A DNA stretch of 64,000 bases from Elusimicrobium sp. (lineage in GTDB: Bacteria > Elusimicrobiota > Elusimicrobia > Elusimicrobiales > Elusimicrobiaceae). Position 1 is the first letter of the stretch; each line of letters opens with the position of its first letter. The position numbers and the translations under genes are program-made. The notes beneath the pieces were generated by a model that worked only from the letters and a program-made list of their open reading frames with translations, was not told where the DNA came from and did not search any database. The stretch covers positions 124,001-188,000 of the forward strand of contig SUVG01000004.1 in NCBI GenBank assembly GCA_015062115.1, given 5' to 3'. Shown piece by piece: positions 4,482-50,198 of the stretch.

Positions 4482-7400
4482 TTAGGGTTGGTAAGCCGGG
4501 GGTTCCCAACCGTGTCCTTCTCCTAACATTTTGTTGGCTTTATCCATCAATTCTTTCATGGATACTTCATAGGAGGGGAAATTGCCTTTATAGCGCGCCG
4601 CACGGGTTTCGGCCACACGGGTCAATTCTTTCTTATACATTCTGCTCAGGACATCTAAGCGGAAGAGGTCTAACCCCTCGTTGTGGTTTGTTACACCCAC
4701 GGCAATTTCGTCTAAGCCGGATTCGGTAATATAGTAGCGGCCATAGATTAATTGCGCGGCGTTGGAAATATAGGCATCAATTTGTTCTTTTGTCATTACT
4801 CTGCCGGTGATTTGCTGTTTAAGCGGTTGTACTTCATATTTCTTAAAGGCAGCATAAGTCAATTCGCCGGTGCTTAACGGAACATTGTTATGGGTGGCCC
4901 CGTTCAAGAGTTTCTTGAGTTCTTCCACCATGCGTAAGCGCAAGGTATTAAGTTCAATTTTATCTTGTACAGGCGCCATAACCTCTTCAATGTGGGTCAA
5001 TTCATGTTTCGTTTCTGCATACAGTTTATTTGCAATACGTTCGGCATCGGCAGCTCTTTGTTCGGCAGAAATACCACCGGATTTCAAGTATTTATCGTAG
5101 AAGCCGTCCACTTCCTTACGAACGATTTTATAGTCCACCGTAGGCGGCATTTTCATCCAGCGTTTTACATCCTGCACGAAGTTAGTGGTAAAGTATTTCC
5201 CGTTGATAGCCGTAGCCAGGAATAAGGCGCTGGCAGGCAAGATTAACGCGTTAATTTGAGGATCCGGCACACCGTTGGCGGCAAAGGTGTTAGCCAAGGA
5301 ACCGTACAGTACCGTAAGGGCACCGGACAATCTGGCCAAGGTATAAGCCATGTTTACGCCGGGTTTTTGATCCGGATATTTTTCCATAGCTAAGGAGTTT
5401 TCAAAACCGGCCAAGTTGGCAAAACCTAACCCGGCAACACCCCAGAGGGCGGCTCTCGCGATCAACGGCAAGCCCGGAATAAAGGCCGCAGCGACAGCCA
5501 CGGAACTTAACACACCGGAGGCACCAATGATACCTTGCGGGGAAAGTTTACCCGATTTTACAAATTTAGATAAGTATTGACGACCGGCCCATACCCCTAC
5601 ATAAGCGGTAAGGAAGGTGGCCACCTGAGCAATAGCGGTGGGATCCAACTTAGCGAACATATTTTGAGCCACCGAGTAGATCTCAGGAGAAAGCGCCGTC
5701 GCCGCAGCTGCACCGACACCAACGGTAGGCGCCAAGAATTTCTTCACCGCTTGCTTTAAGGCAGACGGTTCTTCAACTTCGCCCGGATTCACCGGATTCT
5801 TTTTCAACTTACCTTTCAAGAAGTTGTAGCCGGACTGTACCAATTTAGTGCCACCAAAGGCCACCAGACCGGTAAGCGGAGCAGCAACCATCAAAGGCAA
5901 GTTATGCATCCAGTCCACAAACCCTTGTCCTTCGGCAGATTTAATAAAGTTACCGATAATAGCACCCGGGCCGGAGTTAAACATCATACCCGCAAAGTGA
6001 TACAAACCTACCAAGAGCATCATGCGCGGAATGTATTGCGTAAAGGCCGCAGGCAGTTTTTGAGAGAAGAACTGACCGATTTTATTAAGAGTGCTCGGTG
6101 TGGCCGCGGCAGGAGCCGACGACACGGAGGCAGCACCGGTTAAGCCTTCATCTAACAACTTGCCGTATTCTTTATGGCTGGCTTTAATACGGCTCTTTTC
6201 ACGGATTTGGGCCAGGCGTTCCGCATAACCGCCTTTTATGGCAAACATAACGTTATTAGCGATGTTTTTAGCAACACCCCAAACACCTTCTCCGGCAGCT
6301 CTTAAGATAGTACCCACTTTTTGCAATTTGGTTTGTCCTACCAAAGAGGGAGTTTCCATGCCAACGTTTCTAACTTTAGATTTAAACAAGTTAAAAGCAG
6401 CATAAGCAGGTACCAACATACCGGCATAGTAGAGGGCTTGGAAGGCTTCCACACCCGTTAAGGCCAACAGTACGGAAGCCGGGAAGAATAAGTAACCCGT
6501 CATCGTACCGATAGAAGCACGAGCGTTCACAAAGCCCATACGAGCCGTACCGGTTGTGTTATCGTTGGAAAGTTCTTTAGCAAAAATACTGTTGGTAGAT
6601 TTTACACCACCGTTGGCACCCATACCTAATACAAAGGAACCGAGCCCCAACGTAGCAATTGTGCTGGCGATATCACCCATGGTAAAGGCTGTACCACAAA
6701 TACCCAACCCTATGGCAGAAGTAACAAGCCCTAAGGCCAAGGTGTTTTTAATACCCAATACTTTTTGTAACCCGGAGAAAACAACGCTGGTTACGTTACC
6801 TAATTGAGAGTGGGACACACCGGCTTGAAGTTGTTTCGGGTCACTGATGCCCAAAGCCGTGGCTTGCGGAGCAACGGTGGCTTGAGGCAAACCTCCTAAA
6901 CCTTCGGTTAAACCGGCAAACATGGTGGCTCTTTCCGCGAATACATCGGAATAGAGGTTCAAATCTACTTTGCGGGATAATTTACCGGCCTTAAAATCAC
7001 CTAACAAGCGAGCGTGCAAGGCTTCAATACCGGTTTTACCGCCTTCAATGAAAGGTTCGTAAATACCTCTTACGCCGCCACCGGGAGTGGTAATCATCAA
7101 TTCAAACGGGCCACTATTGTTTTTGCGTCCTAAAGAGAAGGTTTCCGATTGACCAATCCCCAATTGTTCAAATTGTTTAACAGCCGTTTCGTCCAATAAA
7201 CGAATGTTAAGTTCCAAGGTTTCCGGGATAGGATTCCCGGCATTATCAAAAATTTTCAAGTCAAAAGAAAGCTCACGCTTGGCAGGGGCCGCCGTTACGG
7301 CAGAGGCCGCCTGTTCAGATTGCATTAAAGAGAGAATTTCGGCTTGATAAGGAGCCAAGCGAGCTTCACGAGAGATAATGGCGGAGAATTCTTCTCCAAA

Positions 7401-8747
7401 GATTCTGTTGTAGTCGGCAGTGGTTAAAAGTTTGCCTTCTTCCGCTGCTTTTTTGGTGGCTTCCATGAATTTTTTATCGGCATTAAAGCGCGCCGTTTCC
7501 ATGGCTTTGTTGAAATCCTTGATAATGGCTTTGTTACCAGTAGCAGGCAAGTTTAAAGCGCTACGCAACGCCGTCTCATTAACCAGAGCACCCGGAACAA
7601 GCACATTTCCAGCGGCTTTGGCCAACACATCCGCGGTTTCTTCCACCACCGCTTCTCCTTGCGGGATGGGGGAGGAACCTAACGAAAGAAGATCGCTCAA
7701 ATTTAAATCGGCAGATAAATCTAAGGAAGGGAAAATATTGCCACCTTCCGAAATGGCTGCAACCTCGCTAGCGGGCAACGCAGCGAGAGCTTGACCTTTG
7801 TTAGCAGCCAAATCCACCCATTCTTGAGTGGCTTTATAGGAAGAATCTAAATGACGTTTAAACAAATCGGTTCTAGATAAAATAGCCTTTTGCTCTTCGG
7901 CTACTTGAATGGGGGAAGTCCCTTCTACCTTAAGGGAGGGAACACTCATTTGGTTGGTAGTAACATAAGTGGCAAAACCATCCCAAACTTCCGTGCCAGT
8001 TACCGCGGAAAGAGCTTCTTTTTCCACATAGGAAGAAAAAGCAGCAAACTCAGCCTCGGCACCCAAAGCGAGTAACGAACGACCTACAATTAATTCGGTA
8101 AGACCCCCATAGGAATAGGAAGACAGTTTTTTATGAACAAATAAGAATAAATTAGCATCTTTGGTAGCATCACCGTAAAAACCCAATGTAGAAATAGCCG
8201 ACATGGCCTGCCCCCATTTTTCTGCCATTTTTTCAGTGGGAATGGCAGATAAATCAGCAGCGGCTAAATCTATCAAGGACTTGCGGTAGAAATCTAATGC
8301 GATTTTCAGTTCTGCTTCGGGAATAGCAAACTCTCGGGTAATTAATAATTCCGGTAAAGTTTCAAAAAAGAGGACTTCTTTTTCCGCAAGAGGACGGTCA
8401 ATCTTAAAGATTTGGCGTAAAACTTCCAAACCGCTTCCAGTCGGCATTTCGGGAGTTTTTACCAAAGCGGCAATTTCAGGAAGAGGTTTGATGGTTGTTA
8501 TCTGCGAAAGTTCAAGAGAATACGCTCTTAGCACACCGGCATAAATCTGATTGGCACGCAGCGCACCAGCCGGCGTTGTTCTTAAAGCTGAAATGGTTTT
8601 AAGCGTGTTCGCCAGACTTGTCGGTCTTCCACTAAGACCAGTAATAACTTGTTTAGCTAGCTTGCCCTTATTCTGTGCAAAGGAAGGCGTAATGCTTCCG
8701 AAAACTAACGAAATACTGAGTACTATCGCAATTAGTTTGTTCATCAT
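4482..8747 (-). CDS. Giant signal-peptide protein with a central MFS-like membrane domain, 1421 aa
   Basis: Unrecognised as a whole. Residues 1-25 form a signal peptide ending TPSFA-QN. Residues 25-650 are hydrophilic and helical; around residues 170-260 they resemble a domain of the neighbouring 396-aa protein (shared IVGRSL motif). Residues 650-1190 contain about twelve hydrophobic helices in two groups split by a charged loop of roughly 110 residues, with glycine-rich motifs such as GLGSFVLGMGANGG, much like a major facilitator fold. Residues 1190-1421 are again soluble and helical. A cleavable export signal plus 600 periplasmic residues ahead of a transporter-like domain is unusual. It lies behind the GGGTC promoter module at 8797-8873. 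Two ATGs stand side by side at the start; either may be used. Transport function is inference only. Confidence 0.75.
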   Translation of the reverse strand: MMNKLIAIVLSISLVFGSITPSFAQNKGKLAKQVITGLSGRPTSLANTLKTISALRTTPAGALRANQIYAGVLRAYSLELSQITTIKPLPEIAALVKTPEMPTGSGLEVLRQIFKIDRPLAEKEVLFFETLPELLITREFAIPEAELKIALDFYRKSLIDLAAADLSAIPTEKMAEKWGQAMSAISTLGFYGDATKDANLFLFVHKKLSSYSYGGLTELIVGRSLLALGAEAEFAAFSSYVEKEALSAVTGTEVWDGFATYVTTNQMSVPSLKVEGTSPIQVAEEQKAILSRTDLFKRHLDSSYKATQEWVDLAANKGQALAALPASEVAAISEGGNIFPSLDLSADLNLSDLLSLGSSPIPQGEAVVEETADVLAKAAGNVLVPGALVNETALRSALNLPATGNKAIIKDFNKAMETARFNADKKFMEATKKAAEEGKLLTTADYNRIFGEEFSAIISREARLAPYQAEILSLMQSEQAASAVTAAPAKRELSFDLKIFDNAGNPIPETLELNIRLLDETAVKQFEQLGIGQSETFSLGRKNNSGPFELMITTPGGGVRGIYEPFIEGGKTGIEALHARLLGDFKAGKLSRKVDLNLYSDVFAERATMFAGLTEGLGGLPQATVAPQATALGISDPKQLQAGVSHSQLGNVTSVVFSGLQKVLGIKNTLALGLVTSAIGLGICGTAFTMGDIASTIATLGLGSFVLGMGANGGVKSTNSIFAKELSNDNTTGTARMGFVNARASIGTMTGYLFFPASVLLALTGVEAFQALYYAGMLVPAYAAFNLFKSKVRNVGMETPSLVGQTKLQKVGTILRAAGEGVWGVAKNIANNVMFAIKGGYAERLAQIREKSRIKASHKEYGKLLDEGLTGAASVSSAPAAATPSTLNKIGQFFSQKLPAAFTQYIPRMMLLVGLYHFAGMMFNSGPGAIIGNFIKSAEGQGFVDWMHNLPLMVAAPLTGLVAFGGTKLVQSGYNFLKGKLKKNPVNPGEVEEPSALKQAVKKFLAPTVGVGAAAATALSPEIYSVAQNMFAKLDPTAIAQVATFLTAYVGVWAGRQYLSKFVKSGKLSPQGIIGASGVLSSVAVAAAFIPGLPLIARAALWGVAGLGFANLAGFENSLAMEKYPDQKPGVNMAYTLARLSGALTVLYGSLANTFAANGVPDPQINALILPASALFLATAINGKYFTTNFVQDVKRWMKMPPTVDYKIVRKEVDGFYDKYLKSGGISAEQRAADAERIANKLYAETKHELTHIEEVMAPVQDKIELNTLRLRMVEELKKLLNGATHNNVPLSTGELTYAAFKKYEVQPLKQQITGRVMTKEQIDAYISNAAQLIYGRYYITESGLDEIAVGVTNHNEGLDLFRLDVLSRMYKKELTRVAETRAARYKGNFPSYEVSMKELMDKANKMLGEGHGWEPPAYQP

Positions 8748-8796: not shown

Positions 8797-8873
8797 ATTC
8801 TAATGCTAACAGAAATTACGACTATGAACAAGGGTCAAAAGACCCAATTTTTTTATAGGACCTTTTGACCCTT
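8797..8873 (-). promoter_or_regulatory. GGGTC promoter module, copy 1
   Basis: On the minus strand the 14-base palindrome GGGTCTTTTGACCC directly touches a -35 hexamer TTGTTC (8831-8826). A 17-base spacer leads to the -10 TAGCAT (8808-8803), with a second -10-like TAGAAT at 8802-8797. The outer arm 8862-8873 makes a 12-bp inverted repeat with 8830-8841. The module lies about 50-80 bases before the start of the 1421-aa gene. The same layout occurs before three other secreted-protein genes. Confidence 0.6.
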
Positions 8874-8954
8874 GCTCCGACTTGAAACACTTACTGTTTC
8901 CATTTATCATTATAGCACAAAATATCTAGTTTGGTACTATAAAAAAGGTCTGTC

Positions 8955-10145
8955 CTATTTTACTCTTTTATTAAGCACTATCGACATCCATGCCGGCACG
9001 TGTATATAAGGGTCAAAGATATTCAAAATAGAATACTCTCTAAAATATACATCGTACTTATCCCATTTAATGTTAACTTCAAGTTCGTTCGGGCTAGCAG
9101 GCACGGAAACACCTAATAAATAAGATTCATTATAAATACGCAAATCGCGCCAGAAAGGAGCAATAAGGAGCCCGTCTGTAGCGCGTAACGCGGCAATTTC
9201 GTTTAAGCCGGCATAACCTTTAAGACTTACCAAAGAACGGCCGACAATCGCATCGGCATAAGGGGCAAGGTCTTTGGGCATGGCACGCAGAACACCCACA
9301 AGCGGTAAAATATCTTGCTCACTGCCGAAAACCCCCAAAAAGGAGGCATCTGCCATCAATTTGGCAAAATCTTTACTCGTCATTTCCACAAAGGAACCGC
9401 TCCCGGCGGAATCTTCCACGAGTTGTAAAAACTTTTGTACTCCGTAACGAGCCGTATGCAACACATTATACGCTTCCTGCGCGGTAACTGTTTTTTTATT
9501 TTTAATTTTTTCCGCTACTTGGTGATAAGAAAGTTCACGCGTTCTGTTTTCAAGCGCGGCGGGTACTTTATCGGCAATGGGGGAGGGGATAATTTCTACT
9601 CCGGAAGTTGAAGCAACAGGCGACGAATTAGAAGATGTTTTCAAAAAAGATTTCAAAGAATTCCACGATCTTTTCAAAATGGAGAAAGAAGCCGGTTCGG
9701 TTTCCTGCAAAGGAGTATTTTCAAAGGCATATACATACCCCGTGGCACCCATTACCTGAAAACGCACCGGCGGCACATGACTTTTGGCCTGCAACCGGGC
9801 AAAATACTCAGGACGGGAAAGCGGTTTGGGGCGTTTGGCAAGTTCGTCTATTTTTAATTGAAGATTTTTCAGGTTTTGCTCCGTAATGGCTTGCATGGAG
9901 GGAGTGCGGAGAATTTGTTCTTCTACGGACGGGAGAAGAAGTTGTTCCATAGAAGGCAGAGCCATAGGGACGGATTTAACCGCACTTTTTTCAATCTGTT
10001 CCAAAAACATTTTTTCGGATAGTTTCATGTATTCGGCGACGGTAAAAGCCTTGCTTACGGGTTTAACAAGTTGCCCTTGCGCAAACAAAGCGGCAGGCAA
10101 AATCACTAAAGAAAAAACACCCAATAAAGATACTTTTTTATTCAT
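8955..10145 (-). CDS. Secreted protein of unknown function, 396 aa, related to the 1421-aa protein
   Basis: The product has a signal peptide ending ALFA-QG and no other membrane segment, so it should be periplasmic or outside the cell. I do not recognise a family. Its C-terminal half (about residues 230-370) looks like a helical-repeat domain. It shares the pattern 'LG.(F/Y)G ... IVGRSL..L ... W.....Y' with residues 170-260 of the giant protein encoded just downstream, which suggests duplication of a common domain. Residues 160-200 are a Ser/Pro-rich linker. The start has the strong ribosome site GGGAG. The gene is transcribed from its own GGGTC-type promoter module, and another such promoter separates it from the giant gene. 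Confidence 0.7.
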   Translation of the reverse strand: MNKKVSLLGVFSLVILPAALFAQGQLVKPVSKAFTVAEYMKLSEKMFLEQIEKSAVKSVPMALPSMEQLLLPSVEEQILRTPSMQAITEQNLKNLQLKIDELAKRPKPLSRPEYFARLQAKSHVPPVRFQVMGATGYVYAFENTPLQETEPASFSILKRSWNSLKSFLKTSSNSSPVASTSGVEIIPSPIADKVPAALENRTRELSYHQVAEKIKNKKTVTAQEAYNVLHTARYGVQKFLQLVEDSAGSGSFVEMTSKDFAKLMADASFLGVFGSEQDILPLVGVLRAMPKDLAPYADAIVGRSLVSLKGYAGLNEIAALRATDGLLIAPFWRDLRIYNESYLLGVSVPASPNELEVNIKWDKYDVYFREYSILNIFDPYIHVPAWMSIVLNKRVK

Positions 10146-10178: not shown

Positions 10179-10245
10179 ATTGTGCAAAAATGGGAAAAAA
10201 TGAACAAGGGCCCTAAGACCTATTTTCATATAGGTATTTGGGCCC
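10179..10245 (-). promoter_or_regulatory. GGGTC promoter module, copy 2
   Basis: On the minus strand the element reads AGGTCTTAGGGCCC, followed at once by the -35 TTGTTC (10207-10202), a 17-base spacer and the -10-like CACAAT (10184-10179). Two nested inverted repeats lie upstream: GGGCCC (10208-10213 with 10240-10245) and ACCTAT/ATAGGT (10218-10223 with 10230-10235). The paired arms differ from copy 1 yet still pair. It lies about 34 bases before the start at 10145. Confidence 0.55.
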
Positions 10246-10264: not shown

Positions 10265-11401
10265 TTACCAATCTGCGTCTTTACCGAGCGCGGAGACGGG
10301 TAATTGCTCTCCAAAAGAAAAAGCACGGGGAACTTCGTGGACGGTAAGTTTTTGAGACAAAAAAGCACGGATATCTCTTAATGTTTCTTGGGTGAAACCT
10401 TCGTTTAACACGATAAAGGCCTTCAACCGTTCACCTTCATCGGGGCGCATCAACCGAACGCGGCAATCTTTTACGGCAGGGTGTTCTCTTAACACTTCTT
10501 CCGTATGCTTGGGATATACATTTATTCCGGCTACTTGCACACAGGCATCTGTCCGCTTAACAGGAAAAAATGTCCGTTCGGAAACAATTTCCACCTGATC
10601 CGGTAGTAGCGACCATTTTTCCTGTGATTTTCGTTTAATTTGAGGTTGGTCTTCCAATAACGAAATTTCCCAAAACGGGAATAATTCAAAAGGGGTTCTG
10701 GCATGATTTCGGCGGGCCATGGCTCCCATTTCGCTGGCTCCGTAAATTTCCGTCAACTTTTTGGCTCCGGCTGAGTACAATCCCTCAATCACTTCGTCTT
10801 TACAAGGGGCCGTGGAAGTAAGCACGGATACCCCGGGCGGAAAAGTATGTTTGCATTTCAAAAAGTATTTCCAAAATAAAGGGAAACCCACCACCAAGTC
10901 TCCTTCTTGCAGAAGAGTATTCCACGGTTGGGTCGGTAATGCGGGCCTGGAAATTACGGGAACTTTCAAAGCATGAGGCAAGGCAACCGTAAACGAAAAA
11001 CCGTATAGATGATTGGACGGCACCAAAGAAATAATCCTTTTTACTCCTTCAAATTCCGTTGCTACCCCGTAAGCTTCTTCCGCAATCATATCTGCCGAAT
11101 GAGGGCATTGTTTGGGCGTTCCCGTGCTTCCCGAAGTTAAAAAAACGATTTGCTGATTTTTAAGAAAAGAAGCATAGGCATAATCGGTCATTAAATCTAA
11201 AGAAGAGAAAGGACGGGGGGAGTAACCGAAGAAAATGGCCGTTTTCTCAAAAACCGTTTGGGCAACGGCAGGCGAAACCTGTGCAAAAAAATCTTCTGCG
11301 CTTTGGGTTTCAAAAACCGCCAATGCGTCCGCTTGCGTGCGGGCTGTTTCCGTACGGAAGAAATCAAGAATAATACGCTCAATATCACTACGGTTTAACA
11401 T
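10265..11401 (-). CDS. AMP-ligase (acyl/aryl-adenylating enzyme) of an aryl polyene-type cluster
   Basis: An ANL-superfamily adenylating enzyme, expected to activate the aryl starter acid with ATP and load it on an acyl carrier protein. The phosphate-binding loop reads LTSGSTGTPK near residue 90, and EIYGASEMG near residue 215 matches the adenine-binding motif. At 378 residues it is shorter than free CoA ligases. It ends GKDADW, so the catalytic lysine region is present but the chain stops soon after. I start it at the ATG at 11401 (MLNRSDIE), which overlaps the previous gene by 14 bases, rather than at the longer frame's first Met. It is the last gene of the pigment operon. Confidence 0.8.
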   Translation of the reverse strand: MLNRSDIERIILDFFRTETARTQADALAVFETQSAEDFFAQVSPAVAQTVFEKTAIFFGYSPRPFSSLDLMTDYAYASFLKNQQIVFLTSGSTGTPKQCPHSADMIAEEAYGVATEFEGVKRIISLVPSNHLYGFSFTVALPHALKVPVISRPALPTQPWNTLLQEGDLVVGFPLFWKYFLKCKHTFPPGVSVLTSTAPCKDEVIEGLYSAGAKKLTEIYGASEMGAMARRNHARTPFELFPFWEISLLEDQPQIKRKSQEKWSLLPDQVEIVSERTFFPVKRTDACVQVAGINVYPKHTEEVLREHPAVKDCRVRLMRPDEGERLKAFIVLNEGFTQETLRDIRAFLSQKLTVHEVPRAFSFGEQLPVSALGKDADW

Positions 11402-12173
11402 AGGGCACAGCCTCCAATAAAAATTCGGCTCCGGCAAAGTCATCGCGGAAGATAAACGGTTGTTGCTTTGCAAGTAAGCGGGCCGTTTGCAAAGCAGCCC
11501 AAGCGGAGGTGGAAGGGCTTTTCAAAGAAAAATCGGGGAAGTTTTCCGTCCGGGAAAAAGAAAGTTTTTCCACGGCAAACAAAGAATAGGGAGTCGGTTT
11601 TTTAGAAAGGATAAACGCCGCCGCCGCACGAACAAAAGGCCCTTCGGGATTTCTTATTACCGGGGAAAAAAGCGAGCGATCCCGGGGGGCATACTCAGCC
11701 GCAACGGGGTTGATGTCTTCGGCTACGGACACTAACACCTCCGCACACATTTCCCGTTCCAAAAATTCTTGTGCGGTTAAAAGTGCCCCGGCAAAGGAAA
11801 AATCAAACTGGCCGGTGGTTACGCAAGGGCCGTTTAAGTGTAAAAATAAAGAAAGGGTCAAGCCCGTAAAATTATGAACAGACCCGGCAAAAGCCGTGGG
11901 AGAAGAAAGTTCATCTCCGTCATCAATAATACTGTCCATAAACTTACAAGTGCTTTCCAAACTGCCGGCCCCGACGGCTACGCTTAACCCCATTTCCTTG
12001 GGAGCATGAATATCCAAGCCTGCTTGGCTGAGCGCTTGTGCGGAACAAAAAAGAGCATTTTTGGAAATAATTTCCATTCTGCGCAGACGGCGCGCTTCAA
12101 AATAAGGAGCAAAATTTTCTACGGTAGCATCTCCCTCTAAGAAAGAAAAACCGTTTATGTAAAATTTAGCCAT
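11388..12173 (-). CDS. Ketosynthase-like protein without catalytic cysteine (probable chain-length factor)
   Basis: At 261 residues this corresponds to the N-terminal half of a beta-ketoacyl synthase, like the 'ketoacyl-synt_2' proteins of aryl polyene clusters. The hallmark GPCVT is kept near residue 130. The position that is cysteine in the two true ketosynthases of this operon reads aspartate here (GPCVTTGQFDFS compared with GPCVGASDACAT). It therefore probably cannot condense acyl chains and acts as partner or chain-length factor of the adjacent ketosynthase. It overlaps that gene by 8 bases and the AMP-ligase by 14, implying translational coupling. The assignment to this family is by position and motif; the exact partner is inference. 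Confidence 0.75.
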   Translation of the reverse strand: MAKFYINGFSFLEGDATVENFAPYFEARRLRRMEIISKNALFCSAQALSQAGLDIHAPKEMGLSVAVGAGSLESTCKFMDSIIDDGDELSSPTAFAGSVHNFTGLTLSLFLHLNGPCVTTGQFDFSFAGALLTAQEFLEREMCAEVLVSVAEDINPVAAEYAPRDRSLFSPVIRNPEGPFVRAAAAFILSKKPTPYSLFAVEKLSFSRTENFPDFSLKSPSTSAWAALQTARLLAKQQPFIFRDDFAGAEFLLEAVPYVKP

Positions 12174-13368
12174 AATAGTCCTCCGCGCCCAAGACTACGG
12201 CCGCATTACAACCGCCAAAGGCCAACGAGTTGGAAAGAGCCGCCCGTTTGAGGACGGCGGTTTCACCGCAAGAGGGAGCAAAACCGATGGTTTCGTCCAA
12301 TTGTTCAAACCCCGTGGTAGGCGGCAGAATACGCTTATTTAAGGCTGTCAAAGAAAGCACCGCCTCTACGGCACCCGCCGCGCCCAAAGTATGCCCCGTA
12401 ACGCCTTTGGAACCCCACACACAAACGCCCGGCAAAAGTTCATTAAAAGCCATGGCTTCCGCGGCATCGTTGGCTTGGCTGGCGGTGGCATGCGCATTTA
12501 CAAAGGCTAAATTGTCCGCGGTCAGGGAGGCTTCTTTTAAGGCAAAAGAAATAGCCTTTTTTAAGCCTTTGGCGGTAGGGTCGGGAGCCGTGGGGTGGTA
12601 TGCATCGCAAGCATTTCCGTATCCCAATACGTACCCTCGGGGACGGACGGAAAATTCTTGTGCGGTTTTTTCGTTTAAGAGAAGTAACGCTCCCGCTCCT
12701 TCCCCGATGTTAATACCGTTTCGGTTTTTGGAAAAAGGACGGCACCGCTCTTTAGAAGCAATCAACAGGCGGATAAATCCGTCGTAAGGGATTAAGTTTA
12801 TTTCGTCTGTTCCACCACACAAAACCGCATCGCAAAACCCGGAAAGCAACCAACTTTTAGCCAGGCCTATCGCGTCCGTTCCGCTTGCACAGGCCGTAAC
12901 AATGGTTTGAAACGGCCCCTTAAATCCATAATGCCGGGAAATCGCCCCGGCGGTGGGGGTGCGGAAATAATGGGCTAAACGGGCCGGGTCTTTGGGAGAA
13001 GGTTTACCGGCGCGCCAATTATTGTAAACGGAAAAACAGTTAAAAGAAGCGTCCACCGAGGTGCCGGCTATCACTCCGACACGCTTAGAGGCAAGTGCTT
13101 GGGGGGAAATACCCGCTTGCAAAAAAGCCTCTTGTGCGGCAGTTAAAAAGAAATGTTGGCTAAGGCTTCTGTCCTCGGGGCAAGAGGCTACAAGTTCCGG
13201 CGTTACCATAAAGACGGGGAAACGATCCGTATAAGCACTTTGAACGCGGGCAGTCGGCAACGAAAATTCGGCTTCCCCGCTTAAAGCACCGCGGAAAGTT
13301 TCTTCCACCGTTCTACCGGCGGCGCAAACGCACCCTGTGCCGGCAATGATAACGCGATTTGAAGTCAT
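12166..13368 (-). CDS. Beta-ketoacyl-ACP synthase II-type ketosynthase (KS2)
   Basis: A complete FabF-like condensing enzyme of 400 residues. The catalytic Cys160 sits in TACASGTD. The first histidine is in NAHATASQAND, and the lysine/second histidine region reads SKGVTGHTLGAAG. It should extend the polyene chain by decarboxylative condensation with malonyl-ACP. It begins one base into the stop of the ACP gene (13368) and overlaps the ketosynthase-like gene that follows, so the ACP, KS and chain-length factor are encoded as one coupled block. The first domain residues (RVIIAGTGCVCAAG) are typical, so the start is secure. Confidence 0.88.
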   Translation of the reverse strand: MTSNRVIIAGTGCVCAAGRTVEETFRGALSGEAEFSLPTARVQSAYTDRFPVFMVTPELVASCPEDRSLSQHFFLTAAQEAFLQAGISPQALASKRVGVIAGTSVDASFNCFSVYNNWRAGKPSPKDPARLAHYFRTPTAGAISRHYGFKGPFQTIVTACASGTDAIGLAKSWLLSGFCDAVLCGGTDEINLIPYDGFIRLLIASKERCRPFSKNRNGINIGEGAGALLLLNEKTAQEFSVRPRGYVLGYGNACDAYHPTAPDPTAKGLKKAISFALKEASLTADNLAFVNAHATASQANDAAEAMAFNELLPGVCVWGSKGVTGHTLGAAGAVEAVLSLTALNKRILPPTTGFEQLDETIGFAPSCGETAVLKRAALSNSLAFGGCNAAVVLGAEDYYG

Positions 13369-13628
13369 TATTTTTTCCGGTTTTGTTCAATGTAAGCGGC
13401 CAAAGTACCTAAATCTTTGAAAATTTCGCGGCCTTGTTGCATATTTTCAATGGTAATGCCGTATTTTTTTTGAAGAAGCATAATAAGTTCCACGGCGTCT
13501 AAACTATCCAACCCCAGGCCCTGCTCGCCGAAAATGGCATCTTGCGCGCCGAATTTGGAAAGGTCGGCCCCGCCCAAATCAATCCCGTCGGAAATCATTT
13601 GTTTAATTTCTTCAATCGTTTGTTGCAT
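13368..13628 (-). CDS. Acyl carrier protein (ACP2)
   Basis: An 86-residue acyl carrier protein. The phosphopantetheine attachment serine is S42 in GLGLDSLDAVEL, followed by the usual acidic helix. I choose the ATG at 13628 (MQQTIEE) because GGGAG stands about 7 bases upstream; the longer frame would begin inside the preceding gene. It overlaps the acyltransferase gene by 17 bases and the ketosynthase gene by one base. It carries growing acyl chains for the type II polyene synthase. No phosphopantetheinyl transferase is visible in the window, so that activity must come from elsewhere. Confidence 0.88.
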   Translation of the reverse strand: MQQTIEEIKQMISDGIDLGGADLSKFGAQDAIFGEQGLGLDSLDAVELIMLLQKKYGITIENMQQGREIFKDLGTLAAYIEQNRKK

Positions 13629-14529
13629 AATCTTTCTCCCAAAGGTCAAAATAATTAAAAAACTGATATGGATATTTTATACAAAATGCTTGCAAGGCGT
13701 CCACGAATTGTTGCGCGAAAATTTGGTAATTTTCTTTGGACGGGCCTTTTTCGGGTACGGTAAAATGGGCAACCGTCCAAGAAGCAAATTTGCCCGCTCC
13801 TAGCCAAGGCGAAAATATAATCACAATCGGTGCGCCCGTAGCCGCTGCCATGCGGTAGAAACTGTACGGCACGCGTATTTTTCCGCCTAAAAAGGAGGTT
13901 TCCACCGTGTTTTTTTCGTCACCGAATACGCGGTCTGCCATGGCACAAACAACTTCTCCTTTTTGCAAAGCACTCATCATTTCCACCACCCCGCCCAACG
14001 GCCCGGCCGGGTTAATGAAAGAAAAAGGTGCCTGCTTACCGCTGTGTTCCGCTACGGTTTTATCGTTGTCTTTCGGGTTTCGGTAGTAAAGCACATGTTT
14101 TTTGGCAGAAATAAAATCGGTTAAATTGACAGCCATTTGCCATGCCCCGCAATGAGCGGAAAGCAAAATAAGGCCTTTCCCGCAGGATACAAGTTCACGA
14201 CAAAGCACGCATTCTTCTTCCGTGGAAACAACTTCCACCTTTCCCAATATTCCCAAAGCGGCGCGGTCAACCAATGTGCGCGCAAAAGTGAGGTTTAACA
14301 AATAAGTATGCTTAAAAAACTGCCAACGGTTTTTGGGCGCAAATCTATGCTGAATATAGGCACTCGATTTGCGGTAAACGGCAGGGGACAACGAATAAAA
14401 AAGGACAAGCGGATAAAGAAACAAATAAGCCACTCCGCGCCCGCCCAAAAAAATAAGTGCATAGACGAAACGATGCTTAAATTTAGAGGCCAAACTGCGC
14501 CCGGTTTTTTCGGTTTGTTTATTTTTCAT
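13612..14529 (-). CDS. LpxL/HtrB-type acyltransferase of the pigment cluster
   Basis: A 305-residue member of the lysophospholipid/lipid A acyltransferase group with a hydrophobic segment at residues 22-48. It is expected to move an acyl chain, here perhaps the polyene, from ACP onto a lipid or sugar at the inner membrane. The catalytic histidine lies in SAHCGAWQ. The usual HxxxxE/D motif therefore has Gln in the acid position, which would be unusual for LpxL itself. FLGGKIRVPYSF and the downstream GAP motif fit the family. It overlaps the GT2 gene by 11 bases upstream and the ACP gene downstream. The acceptor is not known. Confidence 0.75.
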   Translation of the reverse strand: MKNKQTEKTGRSLASKFKHRFVYALIFLGGRGVAYLFLYPLVLFYSLSPAVYRKSSAYIQHRFAPKNRWQFFKHTYLLNLTFARTLVDRAALGILGKVEVVSTEEECVLCRELVSCGKGLILLSAHCGAWQMAVNLTDFISAKKHVLYYRNPKDNDKTVAEHSGKQAPFSFINPAGPLGGVVEMMSALQKGEVVCAMADRVFGDEKNTVETSFLGGKIRVPYSFYRMAAATGAPIVIIFSPWLGAGKFASWTVAHFTVPEKGPSKENYQIFAQQFVDALQAFCIKYPYQFFNYFDLWEKDYATND

Positions 14530-15676
14530 ATTGTTTACCGTTCAGTCCGCGTGTCAATAATTTTCCAATCACCCACACTAGCCCGAAAGTTAAAGCGGCT
14601 AAAAGCGGTGCTACCACGAAGGAACCGATAACCCACTCCCATACGCGTTGCAGGAATTGATGCCCTAAAGTGGTTAAATTAAACTCGGTCAAAAAATGGC
14701 CGTACCGAATAAAATATCCCGCTTCGATACACAAGGCAGGAACCAAGGGGCCGATGCATAATTTTTCAAAAGAAATGGTAAGCACCCGGTTCAAATTCCA
14801 CCAACCCGCCCCCATAAAAAGCATAACCTGACGCACCCCGGGAAAGGCAATACTTCCGCAAAAAATACCCCATGCCGCCGAAAAAGCATTTTTTACTGCA
14901 CTGTCGGGGTGTTTTAGATTTTCTATCATCACTTCCCAGTAGCCTCGTTTTTTAACCGGTTTTTTCGGTTGGGAAACACGGCAATACTGGCGATGCGGAA
15001 CGGGCAACATGGAACGAATCGTTAAGTAAGTATTGAGCACGGTTAAACGCAAATTGTCCTTCAATCCGCTAAAGTGGGAAATTCTGTTTTTAGGGTAAGT
15101 AACCGAAATATCAACTTCTTCCACGGGGAAACCCGCCCAAAGAGCCCGCACGGTTACTTCCACTTCAAAGGCATATCGCTTACACCAATACCGTTGGCAC
15201 AAAAGTAAGTCCACCGGATAGCAACGGTATCCGCTTTGAATATCGCCGATCGGCTTGCCGGTTTGCAAATGTACCCAAAACCCGCCGAAAGCCCGCCCGA
15301 AACGCGAAGAAAAAGGAACCGTTTTTTTATCAAATTTTCGTTTCCCGATTACCAACGCCAACGGATTTTGCTTGGCGGCGGCCAACAGCAAAGGAAAATC
15401 GTTCGGGTGGTGTTGGCCGTCGGCATCAATGGTAACCAAATGGGTATAACCGTGCGCGTGGGCCCATTTGGCGGCTTCTTGGATAACCACCCCTTTTCCG
15501 CGGTTTTGCGCGAAACGGATAAAGGATACCTTCAACCCTGCCAGTTCTTTTTCGGGCGATACGGTGCTTCCGTCATCAAACACGGCCACATGCGGGCAGA
15601 GAGCCAAACAGCCCTCGGCTACCCGGCGTAAGGTGGCGGAGTGATTATAATGCGGAATAACGATAAGCACTTTCAT
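14519..15676 (-). CDS. GT2 glycosyltransferase fused to a DUF2062 membrane domain
   Basis: The N-terminal half (about residues 1-235) is a family 2 glycosyltransferase. It has a PHYNHS start, DDGST, a DADGQHHP metal site and the IQSGYR region. The C-terminal part (about 250-375) contains hydrophobic helices matching the DUF2062 membrane domain. This fusion recurs in aryl polyene clusters, where it probably modifies or anchors the pigment at the inner membrane. It starts three bases after the DNA methyltransferase stop and overlaps the acyltransferase gene by 11 bases. Sugar donor and acceptor cannot be read from the sequence. Confidence 0.85.
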   Translation of the reverse strand: MKVLIVIPHYNHSATLRRVAEGCLALCPHVAVFDDGSTVSPEKELAGLKVSFIRFAQNRGKGVVIQEAAKWAHAHGYTHLVTIDADGQHHPNDFPLLLAAAKQNPLALVIGKRKFDKKTVPFSSRFGRAFGGFWVHLQTGKPIGDIQSGYRCYPVDLLLCQRYWCKRYAFEVEVTVRALWAGFPVEEVDISVTYPKNRISHFSGLKDNLRLTVLNTYLTIRSMLPVPHRQYCRVSQPKKPVKKRGYWEVMIENLKHPDSAVKNAFSAAWGIFCGSIAFPGVRQVMLFMGAGWWNLNRVLTISFEKLCIGPLVPALCIEAGYFIRYGHFLTEFNLTTLGHQFLQRVWEWVIGSFVVAPLLAALTFGLVWVIGKLLTRGLNGKQYEK

Positions 15677-15679
15677 GGG

Positions 15680-16765: not shown

Positions 16766-16768
16766 AAA

Positions 16769-17236: not shown

Positions 17237-17586
17237 ATAAGTTCCTTTACTCTTAAAATAATTTGGCTGAATTTTTCCTCCGTAGAGAGGGAGGATAATT
17301 CGGCTAAAAACTTCCCTTCCGGGCGGGGGGTGAAAGAAACTCTCACCCGGGAGCCGGGCCCAATAGGACGCATAAACTTGGAACGCACCACTTCTGCCAC
17401 TTCCACCGGCTTACCCTCTTGGCGGGAAAGGGCATCGGCACATAAACCCATCTGGCAGACGGCCGGCAAAAGCGGGTTTCCTTCAAAATGTCCGTTAAAA
17501 GCGGGGAAATCTGCCGGGATATGATATAAAAAACTATTTTCTTCCCGTCTTACAAAACAAGCGGAAAAATTTTCTTCTAAAGACAT
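17233..17586 (-). CDS. FabZ/FabA-like hotdog dehydratase subunit (ApeI-like)
   Basis: A 117-residue hotdog protein carrying the FabZ-type motif FNGHFEGNPLLPAV with the catalytic His33. The FabZ glutamate that normally follows 'PGV.ILE' is glycine here (PAVCQMG). It could therefore need a partner to supply the acid, and the other dehydratase-like gene at 20874-21326 shows the opposite pattern. I begin it at the ATG at 17586, which has AGGAGAAG just upstream; the longer frame runs back into the lipoprotein gene. It overlaps that gene by 10 bases. Role: dehydration of 3-hydroxyacyl-ACP during polyene extension. Confidence 0.8.
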   Translation of the reverse strand: MSLEENFSACFVRREENSFLYHIPADFPAFNGHFEGNPLLPAVCQMGLCADALSRQEGKPVEVAEVVRSKFMRPIGPGSRVRVSFTPRPEGKFLAELSSLSTEEKFSQIILRVKELI

Positions 17587-21326: not shown

Positions 21327-21329
21327 TGT

Positions 21330-38296: not shown

Positions 38297-38339
38297 GGGT
38301 CCTTCGGCCCTTGGATATAAGTTGGCAATTTCTTACTAT
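38297..38339 (+). promoter_or_regulatory. GGGTC promoter module, copy 3
   Basis: GGGTCCTTCGGCCC (38297-38310) directly touches the -35 TTGGAT (38311-38316). A 17-base spacer leads to the -10 TACTAT (38334-38339). It lies 34 bases before the start of the 1632-residue secreted protein. Confidence 0.6.
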
Positions 38340-38372: not shown

Positions 38373-41300
38373 ATGTTCCAACACTACTTACGCCTATTTC
38401 TTGCTTTTGTATTTTTTATTAACATTTTTACACCTTCTTTACTTCAGGCTCAACAGGCCACCGACGGAAAGAGAAGACGGATTTTGAGCACTTCCACGAG
38501 CAGACAAGAACTAGAACTTATGCGCTGGGATTACTATTCGCTCCCTCAGGATAATACAAGAGTTGTTGATACCTCCCAATTGCGCCCAATCAATACCATA
38601 AAGAATCCCGGACTCCCTATAGAAACAGATTCTTCTATCCCTGCTGTCAGACAATACATTAGCCAACGATTAGAAAATAAGGTAAACGAAAGGATAAGTG
38701 ACGAAGGACTTAGCAGGCTTGAATCAATGGAACCGCTTGCTCTGTATGAAATGCATGTCTTGCACGACCGAAGGAATTTTCTCCAAGCAGAAAAAGCGCT
38801 GTTAAAACAAGTGAAAGCAGAACATGAGTCCGGAAAATTGGACTTAACAGATACCGAACGAATATGGAAAGCGACCAAAACTGCGAAAATTCTTAACTTG
38901 CTGGAGGAAGGGAGTCAAGAGTATTCCGCAAAAAACGCTGTTAAGAGAGATAACACTTATGTCGCGCCGCCGGTTATTTTTACAAGACCGTTACCTGAAC
39001 CTAAAGGTACGAAAAAAATCTTCCCGCTAGAAGCCTTATATAACGAAGATAACTTACATATCGGTTGGATAAAGTATTTTTTGTCCGGCGAAGAGAAATT
39101 TTTGCTTCAAAATTTTGCCTATAAGTGGTCCGATTTGCGTTATTTCTATTCCTCAACTCCTAAGATGGTTTCTAAACTCAACAGTTTTACCGGCAGATAT
39201 GACAATATCAAAGAAACTCAACCCAACTTTCTTAATGCTTGGTTCAAATATTTTACCACTGGCCCGGCTAAGGAAATTACTAAATACGAAACAGATCTTT
39301 TGCGATATTTTGTCGTTGAAAGAAAGCATTCTTTGGAAGAAGTGGCCGAAGCCGCAATTTACTTTACAGATTTACTTGACCCGCAAGAATTTGCTTCTTT
39401 TGCGGGAGAAGAGAGAGAATTTATTATCCAAGAATTTTTGGAAGTGGAAGAAATTCTTAAAAAACGCTTGTATTCCATAAAAGGAAAAAACTGGGAAGCT
39501 GTCAACGCTCGCGGCGCACTTCGCCTGGCGTTGTGGAACTTATACAAATTCTACTATCAAACGGGTATCAAAGAAACCAGCGGCATGGAAGCCCCGCTTG
39601 ATGAATTATTAAAAGGCATGCAGATTGGGTGGAATTACTACAAGCACACCACTTTTTCCTTCCCCAAAGAACATTATCAACCCGCCAAGGTTTTCCCATT
39701 AGCGGCGGAAGGTTCCTTTGGAGACAAACTTTGCAAAGAAGCCATAGAAGAAGCAAAAAGCGTAGACGGGAACCAAGAAGTCTATCACACAGCTTTGCAG
39801 TATGCCGCCATCCTTTTAATGCAAGCAAAAGGAAACATTTTACCCTTAATGCGCTATGTGGACCAAAACAAAGAATCCGTTGACTTGACCAGCCCCGTTG
39901 TGAGCGACTCGGCCGTCGTTTTACAAACAGCGGCTAATGAAGCCTACCAAGATCCTTTCAAATTGGCTCTTTTTATCGGTGCGTTACGGATTTTATCTGC
40001 CCCTGTCGAATTTTCTATGCGCACGCGTTTGTCCGCGGTGGAACACGCTTCCTTACTCTACGGTAATACTCCGCGTAAAAAACAATCTATCCCGGCATTA
40101 GATGACAAAATTAAAGCTCAGTTAGAAAAAGACAAAGCCTATTTTGCCGAAATGACAGGCAAACTGTATTGCTTTATGTTATTCACTTATAAGCGAAATG
40201 ATTCCTTCGAGTTGGACTCCGATAATTTCGCAACTTTAGTTACTTCATTAAATTCAACCTATTACGATTTTTATTACCCGGACGGTCCCATAATTCAAGC
40301 AGCTGGGTCTCCTTCCATTTTGCCTAAAAATATGGATAATGAGAGAGCCTACTGCCAGCCCTATGATCATGTTAAAGTTTTAGAAAACAAAAAAATAGAT
40401 GAAATGGAAGAGGCCGTTGCCATGTTTGTGGTAGATGCCGGACTGTGGATTGTCGGCGGATGGGTTATTGGTGCTTTATTCAAAGGCGTTTCTATTGTAA
40501 TTCGTTCTTCTTGGGTAGCCTTAAAAGCAACGCCCAAGGCGCTTGGAGCCGTCAATACAGTTAGAAAAGGGCGCAAAATACAGGCCGCCGTTATCGAATA
40601 CAAAAAAGCCTACCGCTATAGTAACTATATGCGTAATGTGGCTAAAAACAGCACTGTTACCCAAACTTATACAAGAGCAAATACTGCCGCCCGTACGGCC
40701 AAAGGAGCCTCCACCGCTCAGCAAAGCAGCCGTGCTGCCACAACCGTCACTGCTCAGGGGGGGAAAGGGGCAACAACTATTACAAGCCAAGGAGCAAAAG
40801 GAGCAGGCACCGCAACATCCGCTTCTGCCGGAGCATCTTCTGCGACCTCCGGCTCTGCTGCCGGCACTGTCGGCCGCGAAACAACCAGAGCTGTTACCAA
40901 AAAAAGCCAACTTATTTATAGCGACTGGAACCCTTTTAGAAACCCGAAACAACTTACTAACTTAACACGCACGGAATACAGACCTTTTACCAGCGAACCG
41001 TTGACTTGGCGTTTAACGGATGAATCGCTTGCCCTGTTTAATGCCGAAAGAGGTATCCGCAACTATGATATTCTGCGCAAAATGAGGGGAGTGGATCAAT
41101 TTGGAAATACCATGAAATTCTTTGAACCGTTGCCCGCTTCCAGATTATTCTCCTTCAATCCCACTATCGCCCAAAGAGAACTGGGTGTGATGACCCAGTA
41201 TGTCCAAAACGGAGGATTAAAAGAATTAAATATATGGGGGTTAACCGAATCGGGAAATTTAGTACAGATGATAGGCCCGCTGGGTAAACCCGTGGGGAAC

Positions 41301-43271
41301 CCGCTTATTACCCGGGTTTTTGCCGCAGACCAGGGTTTCACAAAATTAGCCTTGAACAACCCTGCTTCCTTTATGAGGCTGGCAGCCTCGCCCAACAAAC
41401 CGGCTGTAGGATTGATCAGCGAATTAAGCTTTCCGCTTTCTTCGGAAAGTATTGCCTTAAGTTTTTTAAGAAAAGGCTATGGCCTTTCGGGCAAAAATTT
41501 GTTTACAAAGGCCCTACTCCCGACTTCTTGGAAAACCTTACCCCTGGCCGAGTGGAATTACATTAAGAGATCTTGGAAACCCACTCTTACACTCTTCGGG
41601 GCTTGGGAAGCTGGAGATATTATTGCAGAACCGTTAATTACACAATGGCAAGAAAAAACACTTCTTTCTTTAACCAACAAAGCGATGACTCCCTATTCTG
41701 GTATTTTTGATGAAGCAGGTAAATGGGGGAAAGCGTTAACAGAATTGAATTACAAAAATGGCTCTATTCCGCCCGCATCGGCTCATTTAGCAAGTGATTT
41801 AGCCGACAACAACAAAGACCCCGAGTATTTATTCCCGCTTCTGGCGGGGGGAATCGGTACCGGTCTTGATTATGTAGATATTTGGAAAGATATTCCCCTT
41901 ATCGGCAATATGACAGATTGGATTGGAAAATCTCTCATGTCTCTGGGCCAAGAGATATCCTCTGTTCCCGGCGGAGAATACTTGTCGCTTCCCTTTATCT
42001 TAACCAGCCTGCCTTTTCAAGGGGCAGAACCTTTGAAAATGATGGGAGGAATTGAAGTTCCCCAAGAAGCCAAAGATATGTTAAGCGAGCAAACCGAACA
42101 TCGAGCTTGGAAGACTCGTACGGATACCAACAAAATAAAACGTTCCTATAGAAAAATGGCAGAAAGTATGTATGAAAATGCAAGTCAAGTCATTTTTGAG
42201 AACGTTCCTAAAGAGCGCCGAAAAGACGTTCAAGAAGCCTTTGGAGATTTGTTGGCTGAATATAAACGCGACCTTACAGAAGCTGTTAAAAAACCCGAAA
42301 CAGCTAACGATATCATGCCTATTACGGAAAAGTTCAATCAAAACTTTTGGTTGCGTTCCCACGAAGTTAACTTTAGAGAATTAAAAAATTTGGCAAAAGA
42401 AAATCTAAATACCGAACTAAGAAAACCGGTTTTAACCAAAATAGATCAGGCCATGAAAGAGATTGATACGATCCGGCAAGGGGATTCTATTTTGTCGGAA
42501 GCCGAAAAAGAAGAAAAAGAAAAACAATTAACCGGTATCTATAATAATGCCGTTTTAGCATTAAGAGAACAAATATATATAGCCAAAATAATGAAAGAAA
42601 TTGAAAATGCAAATCAAGCCTACTATATTAAATTTGTTCAGTCTTCTTTTGCAAAGGTTTCTCAAAATATACAACCTGAGAAATTTGATGACTATTTCCA
42701 ACACTTGGAAACAAATTTGGCTAATGGCTTTTCTATCCTTGAGTTTTGGGTATATTACAAAGAGGCCTTTGTCACAATGCAATCTCAAGCAAGGGAATTA
42801 GGAAATGAAGAATTATGGGGAGAAATCGAACAAGTTTTAGGGAAAGTAGAAGAATACTTAAATGATCCCAAACCTTTAACAGCGGAGCAACAGATAGAAA
42901 TAAACAACGCTTACCGTACCCTGCATTCCAAGCTAAAAAAATCTCTGGAACAAAATATCATTTTGTGGGAAAAAACAATCTTGGCTGATATTAACAATTT
43001 TGGAACCAAGGTTCAAACTTACATTGTTTCTTGGAAAAATAAAGAAGCACGCAAAGAGGCCGAAGCGGCTATCGAAACCTTTGTGCAACAAGCCACGGCT
43101 GTTGTAAAAGGGGAAGGTTTGGTATCCGACAAAAACAATCAACTCAGAGCACTTCTATCCGCCATACAAAAGCAATTACAAAAAATCTATAATGAAAAAG
43201 AGTTGCAACAGGAAATGAAGGAAGAACTCTTACCTTCCAGCAATACTGACCTACATACCCAAGCGTATTAA
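38373..43271 (+). CDS. Giant secreted protein of unknown function, 1632 aa
   Basis: I recognise no family. I start it at 38373, where GGGAG precedes the ATG and a signal peptide (ending LLQA-QQ) follows. Residues 25-680 are mainly helical and tyrosine-rich. A hydrophobic helix lies near residues 685-720 (WIVGGWVIGALF). Residues 766-845 are a low-complexity Ala/Thr/Ser/Gly/Gln stretch, probably a flexible linker. Residues 1220-1620 are rich in Lys and Glu and look like a long coiled coil. Base composition is like the neighbours, with no sign of recent transfer. It has its own GGGTC promoter module and terminator, so it is a single-gene unit. Confidence 0.75.
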   Translation: MFQHYLRLFLAFVFFINIFTPSLLQAQQATDGKRRRILSTSTSRQELELMRWDYYSLPQDNTRVVDTSQLRPINTIKNPGLPIETDSSIPAVRQYISQRLENKVNERISDEGLSRLESMEPLALYEMHVLHDRRNFLQAEKALLKQVKAEHESGKLDLTDTERIWKATKTAKILNLLEEGSQEYSAKNAVKRDNTYVAPPVIFTRPLPEPKGTKKIFPLEALYNEDNLHIGWIKYFLSGEEKFLLQNFAYKWSDLRYFYSSTPKMVSKLNSFTGRYDNIKETQPNFLNAWFKYFTTGPAKEITKYETDLLRYFVVERKHSLEEVAEAAIYFTDLLDPQEFASFAGEEREFIIQEFLEVEEILKKRLYSIKGKNWEAVNARGALRLALWNLYKFYYQTGIKETSGMEAPLDELLKGMQIGWNYYKHTTFSFPKEHYQPAKVFPLAAEGSFGDKLCKEAIEEAKSVDGNQEVYHTALQYAAILLMQAKGNILPLMRYVDQNKESVDLTSPVVSDSAVVLQTAANEAYQDPFKLALFIGALRILSAPVEFSMRTRLSAVEHASLLYGNTPRKKQSIPALDDKIKAQLEKDKAYFAEMTGKLYCFMLFTYKRNDSFELDSDNFATLVTSLNSTYYDFYYPDGPIIQAAGSPSILPKNMDNERAYCQPYDHVKVLENKKIDEMEEAVAMFVVDAGLWIVGGWVIGALFKGVSIVIRSSWVALKATPKALGAVNTVRKGRKIQAAVIEYKKAYRYSNYMRNVAKNSTVTQTYTRANTAARTAKGASTAQQSSRAATTVTAQGGKGATTITSQGAKGAGTATSASAGASSATSGSAAGTVGRETTRAVTKKSQLIYSDWNPFRNPKQLTNLTRTEYRPFTSEPLTWRLTDESLALFNAERGIRNYDILRKMRGVDQFGNTMKFFEPLPASRLFSFNPTIAQRELGVMTQYVQNGGLKELNIWGLTESGNLVQMIGPLGKPVGNPLITRVFAADQGFTKLALNNPASFMRLAASPNKPAVGLISELSFPLSSESIALSFLRKGYGLSGKNLFTKALLPTSWKTLPLAEWNYIKRSWKPTLTLFGAWEAGDIIAEPLITQWQEKTLLSLTNKAMTPYSGIFDEAGKWGKALTELNYKNGSIPPASAHLASDLADNNKDPEYLFPLLAGGIGTGLDYVDIWKDIPLIGNMTDWIGKSLMSLGQEISSVPGGEYLSLPFILTSLPFQGAEPLKMMGGIEVPQEAKDMLSEQTEHRAWKTRTDTNKIKRSYRKMAESMYENASQVIFENVPKERRKDVQEAFGDLLAEYKRDLTEAVKKPETANDIMPITEKFNQNFWLRSHEVNFRELKNLAKENLNTELRKPVLTKIDQAMKEIDTIRQGDSILSEAEKEEKEKQLTGIYNNAVLALREQIYIAKIMKEIENANQAYYIKFVQSSFAKVSQNIQPEKFDDYFQHLETNLANGFSILEFWVYYKEAFVTMQSQARELGNEELWGEIEQVLGKVEEYLNDPKPLTAEQQIEINNAYRTLHSKLKKSLEQNIILWEKTILADINNFGTKVQTYIVSWKNKEARKEAEAAIETFVQQATAVVKGEGLVSDKNNQLRALLSAIQKQLQKIYNEKELQQEMKEELLPSSNTDLHTQAY

Positions 43272-49212: not shown

Positions 49213-49295
49213 GGGGCCCAGAAAAAAATAGGCCCTTCCTCTTTTACTTTCTGGGTCTTTTGCCCCTGGAAATTTTTGATAAAAATTATTATGAT
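49213..49295 (+). promoter_or_regulatory. GGGTC promoter module, copy 4
   Basis: GGGTCTTTTGCCCC (49253-49266) runs into CTGGAA (49266-49271) as -35, with an 18-base spacer to the -10 TATGAT (49290-49295). Upstream bases from 49213 give a long imperfect inverted repeat (GGGGC...GCCCC, CCAGAAA...TTTCTGG). It lies about 36 bases before the ATG at 49332. Confidence 0.55.
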
Positions 49296-49331: not shown

Positions 49332-50198
49332 ATGAAAAAATTATTTGCATTAGCGTTACTTCTCTGCCTGGCGACCCCTTTTGTGAGCGCACAGCAGACC
49401 TCTGTTCTCATGAAAAATATTGGGAAAAAGTTAGTGGAATCATCCTCTACCAATGCTCATGAAAAAGGCGTTATTATGATTAACTTGATAGTAGATGCCG
49501 TTTTTCTTGATGTAGAGGCAAAAAATGATCCCATTGAAAAAAAATGCCCGGCCGTGCGCATTGCTCCCAACACTTTGCTTGCTTCCCGCGCTTGCATTGA
49601 TTTAAGCGGAAAAGGAACTCTTATTCAATCCGGCGGCGGGAGTGGAGATCTTATTTATTCCGAACGCAGAGTAGCCCGCTGGGTTTCCAGCATCAAAATC
49701 GAAGGTGTAACCATAGGGGAAGAAAATTTCCGCGAAGACGGCAAACTGTTACTGATTGCCATTGACGGTTCTAACGAAAAATTGCAAAAAGCAATCCAAA
49801 AGATGCCGATTGTAGATTTGTTCGTTGCGCAAGATGCGGAAAGCTTAAAAACCACTTTCCCGGAAATTACCCTTAACCGTAACGATATGTTGTGGGGAAG
49901 AGAATGTGCCCCCGTGGATGTGGTTAATGTGTGCACGGAAGAACAATGTTTCAAAATCTGTTGGAAAGCCGTTAGAGGAGATACGGGTGACCCGGTTTTC
50001 GGCAGAAACCCCGATACGAACAATTTAGAATATCTCTTGGGTTTCAATGTAACCAACTCCGATAAAGACGGGCGCAACCCCGGCAGATGGTATCACTTCT
50101 TGTCACAGTCTTCTTTAGACTTTTTCAAAAAGAATTTACTTAAACAAGAGTGGGATTACATTAAGAAACATGTAAAAGATGAAACCTTGTACAATTAG
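49332..50198 (+). CDS. Secreted trypsin-like protein lacking catalytic residues
   Basis: A 288-residue protein with signal peptide (cleavage VSA-QQ). The layout resembles a trypsin-fold peptidase. 'VRIAPNTLLASRACI' stands where proteases have the '.V.TAAHC' histidine motif. 'VRGDTGDPVFG' stands where they have GDSGGP. By this alignment the histidine reads alanine and the serine reads threonine. Cysteines at 'ECAPV', 'VCTEEQC' and 'KICWK' may form disulphides. So it would be a non-catalytic relative, perhaps a binding protein. The likeness is by eye only. AGGAGAG precedes the ATG, and the gene has the GGGTC module and its own terminator. Confidence 0.6.
   Translation: MKKLFALALLLCLATPFVSAQQTSVLMKNIGKKLVESSSTNAHEKGVIMINLIVDAVFLDVEAKNDPIEKKCPAVRIAPNTLLASRACIDLSGKGTLIQSGGGSGDLIYSERRVARWVSSIKIEGVTIGEENFREDGKLLLIAIDGSNEKLQKAIQKMPIVDLFVAQDAESLKTTFPEITLNRNDMLWGRECAPVDVVNVCTEEQCFKICWKAVRGDTGDPVFGRNPDTNNLEYLLGFNVTNSDKDGRNPGRWYHFLSQSSLDFFKKNLLKQEWDYIKKHVKDETLYN

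Follow-up and report, generated by a model that had tools for sequence, protein, structure and literature searches.

The window analysed here, a 64,000-nucleotide stretch of Elusimicrobium sp. (contig SUVG01000004.1, positions 124,001 to 188,000), contains four genes for signal-peptide proteins whose promoters carry the same short palindromic box fused to the -35 element. An earlier note, made from the letters alone, had described four promoters built on one plan, and we found all four at the places it named, in front of genes whose lengths and signal peptides it had given correctly. The features of the four sites are the following.

8829..8845, minus strand: site 1 proximal box, GGGTCTTTTGACCC (GGGTCTTTTGACCCTTG), 17/17 to the consensus
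8803..8831, minus strand: site 1 promoter core, TTGTTC, 17-bp spacer, TAGCAT
8855..8873, minus strand: site 1 distal unit, AAGGGTCAAAAGGTCCTAT, a second copy of the short palindromic unit
8858-8874, plus strand: site 1 mirror box, GGACCTTTTGACCCTTG, which the distal unit gives on the plus strand; no secreted open reading frame (ORF) follows it
4482..8747, minus strand: target 1, signal-peptide protein of 1421 aa, no family match
10205..10221, minus strand: site 2 proximal box, AGGTCTTAGGGCCC (AGGTCTTAGGGCCCTTG)
10179..10207, minus strand: site 2 promoter core, TTGTTC, 17-bp spacer, CACAAT
8955..10145, minus strand: target 2, signal-peptide protein of 396 aa, no family match
38297..38313, plus strand: site 3 proximal box, GGGTCCTTCGGCCC (GGGTCCTTCGGCCCTTG)
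38311..38339, plus strand: site 3 promoter core, TTGGAT, 17-bp spacer, TACTAT
38373..43271, plus strand: target 3, signal-peptide protein of 1632 aa, no family match
49253..49269, plus strand: site 4 proximal box, GGGTCTTTTGCCCC (GGGTCTTTTGCCCCTGG)
49267..49295, plus strand: site 4 promoter core, TGGAAA, 17-bp spacer, TATGAT
49332..50198, plus strand: target 4, signal-peptide protein of 288 aa

The spacer between the -35 and -10 elements had been put at 17-18 bases; the spacing is indeed fixed, and all four spacers measure exactly 17. The fourth promoter lies where it was placed, but the CTGGAA proposed as its -35 does not stand, one C having been counted twice; the hexamer in register is TGGAAA. 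Longer inverted repeats, with arms that differ but still pair, had also been described. Pairing arms do exist, in the form of a second palindromic unit upstream of the box, and two such units look like one long inverted repeat, which explains the impression of differing arms. In the window only site 1 shows this arrangement clearly (AAGGGTCAAAAGGTCCTA); the second unit is partial at site 2 and out of register at sites 3 and 4. Five places in the window agree with the consensus at 15 or more of its 17 positions, the fifth being the mirror box, compared with 0-1 in twelve Markov surrogates. Target 4 contains a GDTGDPVF stretch reminiscent, by eye and without Pfam support, of trypsin-like proteases.

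Distribution and anatomy of the box

We searched for the box with the pattern T[AG]GG[TC]C[TC]TTTG[AG]CC-C-TTG, using the reversed pattern as the control. The host's own genome, a 1.44-Mb draft from a gut Elusimicrobiaceae bacterium examined by pattern searches and in selected stretches, gave 28 matches to a loose pattern against 9 controls when up to two mismatches were allowed, and 15 against 1 with up to one. Across 66 congeners the pattern without the -35 element gave 507 matches against 8 controls, an enrichment of about 60-fold. When 295 genomes of the phylum were scanned with a 19-mer box (one mismatch), it was found in the host's own family (f1) and in four other families of the class (f2, f7, f8 and f10), and it was absent from every sampled genome outside the class. 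In these four families it occurs at 1-4 copies, with essentially no control matches and with the geometry seen in f1. A scan of named genomes returned the box mostly from Elusimicrobiota, chiefly from metagenome-assembled genomes (MAGs) of gut Elusimicrobiaceae; the matches in Kaistella, Trichodesmium, Meiothermus and other organisms outside the phylum lack the geometry and were put down to chance. The distribution over the genome and its relatives is thus far from random, as the earlier note had predicted, given the excess over the control, the fixed spacing and the bias towards signal-peptide genes described below. Judged from these sequence comparisons, the box is a real, class-wide promoter element.

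A matrix of 204 sites reads T, A/G, GG, Y, C, Y, TTT, G, R, CC, C, TTG, then Y. The unit within it is a near-invariant 12-bp dyad, GGYC-N4-GRCC, that abuts the -35 element, and with its flanks it forms a hexamer dyad with a 4-nt spacer, TAGGYC-N4-GRCC(C/TA), a ComA-like operator layout. The -10 element is TAnAAT, with a spacer of 17-18 bp in 128/179 sites and a peak at 17 bp. The register of the -35 element is real and not a product of the search pattern, because TTG also follows the box in 78 of the 147 sites of a second set in which a -35 was not required. In the matrix an A after the TTG is rare (9%), so that the -35 reads TTGY rather than TTGACA and is therefore poor. In 94/204 sites a second unit, searched for as RRGRCCYR, starts 17 or 18 bp before the box; the dyad centres of the two units lie 24-25 bp apart, and a weak third step is seen at 39-41.

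The distance from the box to the ATG bears on where transcription begins. ATGs spike at 49 or 50 nt past the start of the box (37/179), mostly 6-8 nt past the -10 element, and a Shine-Dalgarno-like motif accompanies only 1/45 of the ATGs at 45-53 nt from the box start, compared with 106/128 of those beyond 58. Since the ATGs cluster directly after the -10 without a Shine-Dalgarno motif, the start should lie downstream of the box, which would make the box a DNA element. The simplest reading is that transcripts begin about 49 or 50 nt past the box start, some 7 bases after the -10, and that many of them are leaderless. A start in this position would put the box at about -49 to -33, the centre of its dyad at about -42.5 and that of the distal dyad at about -66.5. 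The proximal value coincides with the position of a class II activator, overlapping the -35 element.

Genes behind the box

When the loci of the host's own genome were read one by one, about 20 boxes were found to precede signal-peptide genes. The same holds, by a crude signal-peptide predictor, for 179 of the 204 sites of the matrix, the rest being mostly apparent missed signal peptides or contig ends, and for 62 of 69 context-blind matches in six congeners, which bears out the secreted-protein bias claimed for the box targets. Clustering by sequence sorts the 185 distinct target proteins into 25 clusters and leaves 60 singletons; export, not homology, is therefore what they have in common. 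Recognised domains among them are an M20 peptidase and a weak trypsin-like match. In free-living families the box precedes genes for a secreted endonuclease I, a PLD-like domain protein and a metallo-beta-lactamase-fold protein, and these few domains suggest that the ancestral targets may have had a secreted, partly nuclease-like scavenging role.

Boxes outside the secretome are few. Those of the host's own genome are the mirror copy and boxes before hisS (L016/L071), which we judged a chance match, before a radical-SAM gene (L018/L068), which is an exception to the secretome rule, and before a histidine kinase with a dCache domain (L352). The last suggested autoregulation, but the congener orthologues of L352 mostly keep the promoter without conserving the proximal box, and the idea was dropped. 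An Rs-type Elusimicrobium MAG adds further rare exceptions, with boxes (L137:3605 and L142:1319) before cytosolic UvrB-like and RdgB-like genes, both named by eye.

Three box-controlled paralogues of the host's own genome (L062, L066 and L069; boxes at G000:C1:227520, C2:58802 and C5:49285) combine a signal peptide with a C-terminal receiver-like domain. One of them matches Pfam PF00072 (E=5.8e-8), and a second, as an AlphaFold model, matches PDB receiver domains with E of about 5e-5; the usual Lys is apparently missing, and the paralogues apparently represent an exported receiver domain. The window also encodes a signal-peptide protein of 363 aa (1666-2757, minus strand) whose mature N-terminus, QKNLKNASKVLSSLTG, is like that of the box-controlled proteins, yet it has no upstream box. 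The region from 10265 to 23931 (minus strand) encodes FabF-like ketosynthases, an AMP-ligase and a glycosyltransferase, and looks like a biosynthetic locus for an aryl polyene or a related product of the fatty-acid type.

How the box may be read

Probably the box is an operator at which a transcription factor switches on genes for exported proteins. We infer that a protein reads it, acting as an activator and not as a repressor, and that this protein belongs to the response regulators of the NarL/FixJ type. Both its size and its place at -42.5 would suit the dyad to a dimeric activator. Each GGYC-N4-GRCC unit would be bound by a dimer, the proximal one sitting at about -42.5, where it overlaps the 5' end of a weak -35 element of the sigma-70 type (TTGY), and about half of the promoters would take up a second dimer 24-25 bp further upstream. 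Once bound, the factor would contact RNA polymerase and make up for the missing -35 contacts, in a class II activation assisted by a class I-like helper site, and any gene that acquires the box would join one secretome regulon.

The same position would also fit a repressor that covers the -35 element and silences the secreted-protein genes until a signal removes it. The proximal unit does touch the -35, and dyads of such size are often used by repressors; the systematically poor -35 elements suit activation, however, and activators, more typically than repressors, have a phased distal unit such as the one at about -66, so that we consider repression unlikely. An alternative sigma factor, for which the box would be an extended -35 element read by a special sigma subunit, could account for the fixed register in which the box abuts the -35 and for its marking of a single gene class. 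It appears improbable, given the ordinary TAnAAT -10 element with its 17-bp spacer and the repetition of the dyad at 24-25 bp, a pattern foreign to DNA recognition by sigma factors. Nor do these promoters, with their -35 TTGY, carry the -24 GG and -12 GC elements of sigma-54.

A transcribed hairpin, acting as a terminator, riboswitch or stability element, had already been regarded as less likely in the earlier note, and we find it very improbable. The 14-mer can fold, it was flagged as terminator-like on both strands at site 1, and some sites have longer arms that pair. Within the proximal dyad the two positions that vary nevertheless do so independently of each other (Fisher p=1.0; p=0.73 in the set in which a -35 was not required), with no sign of compensatory change, and base pairing is therefore not what is conserved. 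The start placed downstream of the box, at promoters many of whose ATGs have no Shine-Dalgarno motif, points the same way. The 14-mer was rejected as a terminator as well, since the coding strand has no T-run after it, the one at site 1 being confined to the plus strand, and since the -35/-10 register is class-wide. A small mobile repeat, like a miniature inverted-repeat transposable element, landed by chance upstream of genes would explain many near-identical copies per genome in numbers that vary among congeners, but it is hardly credible where the 204-site matrix shows only background conservation outside the box and the phased distal unit, with no longer shared flank, where the distances to the -10 and ATG are fixed, and where the box keeps to signal-peptide genes across the class.

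A candidate reader and related systems

The search for a protein that reads the box covered NarL-type and CRP-type regulator families. A CRP-type reader was ruled out, as no such regulator is present in the host's own genome, where PF13545 brought up nothing but a LexA-like protein below the cut-off. The genome encodes two NarL-type response regulators, RR1 and RR2. RR1 adjoins a DesK-like kinase and is conserved in f1; a close relative is absent from box-bearing f7 genomes, and RR1 was rejected as a universal reader. Its partner kinase (L342:5284-6429) has a Cys-rich start, CEFSCSQCANRLDGTCPHE, before the kinase core and is possibly a metal or redox sensor.

RR2 (G000:C1:36490-37176) shares its locus, beside a TadE gene, with genes for a dCache histidine kinase and a REC-histidine kinase. 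It occurs at about 60-95% identity in f1, f2, f7, f8 and some others, and it is present in all box-bearing genomes tested. In the class outside f1, 27 of the 50 RR2-bearing genomes had boxes, compared with 0 of the 16 that lack RR2 (Fisher p=6e-5), in a table compiled by hand from genomes that are not independent and some of which were chosen for having boxes. On distribution RR2 is the best candidate reader, tentatively put forward here as possible rather than probable. It is a candidate and not a conclusion because of this make-up of the table, because RR2 also occurs without boxes, and because its own locus has no good box. In three genomes of f1 genera g14-g16 (G193, G195 and G198) RR2 is present and the box is absent at one mismatch, the regulon having been lost or the box having drifted.

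Several points weigh against an activator operator read by such a regulator. Besides the fit of a repressor to the same position, the correlation between RR2 and the box is confounded by phylogeny and partly by the choice of genomes, and boxless genomes with RR2 extend to f5, f12-f14 and some f7 in addition to the three f1 genera. RR2 may serve only the adjacent TadE/Tad genes, and the search for a reader covered just the two regulator families. The signal-peptide predictor also counts membrane proteins and scores 24 of the 59 ORFs of the window as positive.

The general kind of element, an activator operator, is known. In class II promoters of CRP/FNR a dyad near -41.5 overlaps a weak -35 element; the box shares this position and differs in half-site and spacing. 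The DegS-DegU exoenzyme regulon, in which a NarL-family regulator drives secreted degradative enzymes, resembles the box system in its secreted-enzyme targets and in the family of the candidate reader, and it is not known to have a conserved strict operator of the box kind. The closest described layout is that of the promoters of ComA, a NarL-family response regulator of Bacillus subtilis, with a distal TTGCGG-N4-CCGCAA and a class II proximal site (PMC4797271). On paper, the box would work in the same way. Common to both are a dyad with a 4-nt spacer, the combination of class II and class I sites (class III) and a dimeric activator, presumed in the case of the box, whereas the half-site differs (TTGCGG versus TAGGYC) and the proximal ComA site is a direct repeat where both box units are dyads (PMC4797271). 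Phylum and targets differ as well. The PEP-CTERM genes controlled by sigma-54 and PrsK-PrsR likewise place a set of exported proteins under one promoter class, with a two-component system implicated, and they combine -24/-12 sigma-54 promoters with a C-terminal sorting tag (PMC9850573, PMC1569441). Box promoters, in contrast, have -35 and -10 elements of the sigma-70 type, and no common C-terminal tag was noticed on their targets, for which no systematic search was made. No published description of the box was found among open-licence papers; as far as we searched, the box and its secretome regulon are new to description.

A more far-reaching and rather unlikely possibility is a class-wide system that tags genes by destination. 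The Tad-linked response regulator would read the double dyad and drive the export repertoire, which would have grown from a few secreted, partly nuclease-like enzymes of free-living ancestors to dozens of unrelated, partly leaderless proteins of the gut lineage, perhaps exported via the Tad machinery.

Through the box, the secreted proteins of a phylum that has been little studied become accessible from sequence only. Genes downstream of it are very likely exported and co-regulated, and dozens of families without an assigned function can be grouped in this way. The box promoter is compact, often driving apparently leaderless mRNAs, and the regulon would have grown by the repeated capture of a single operator.
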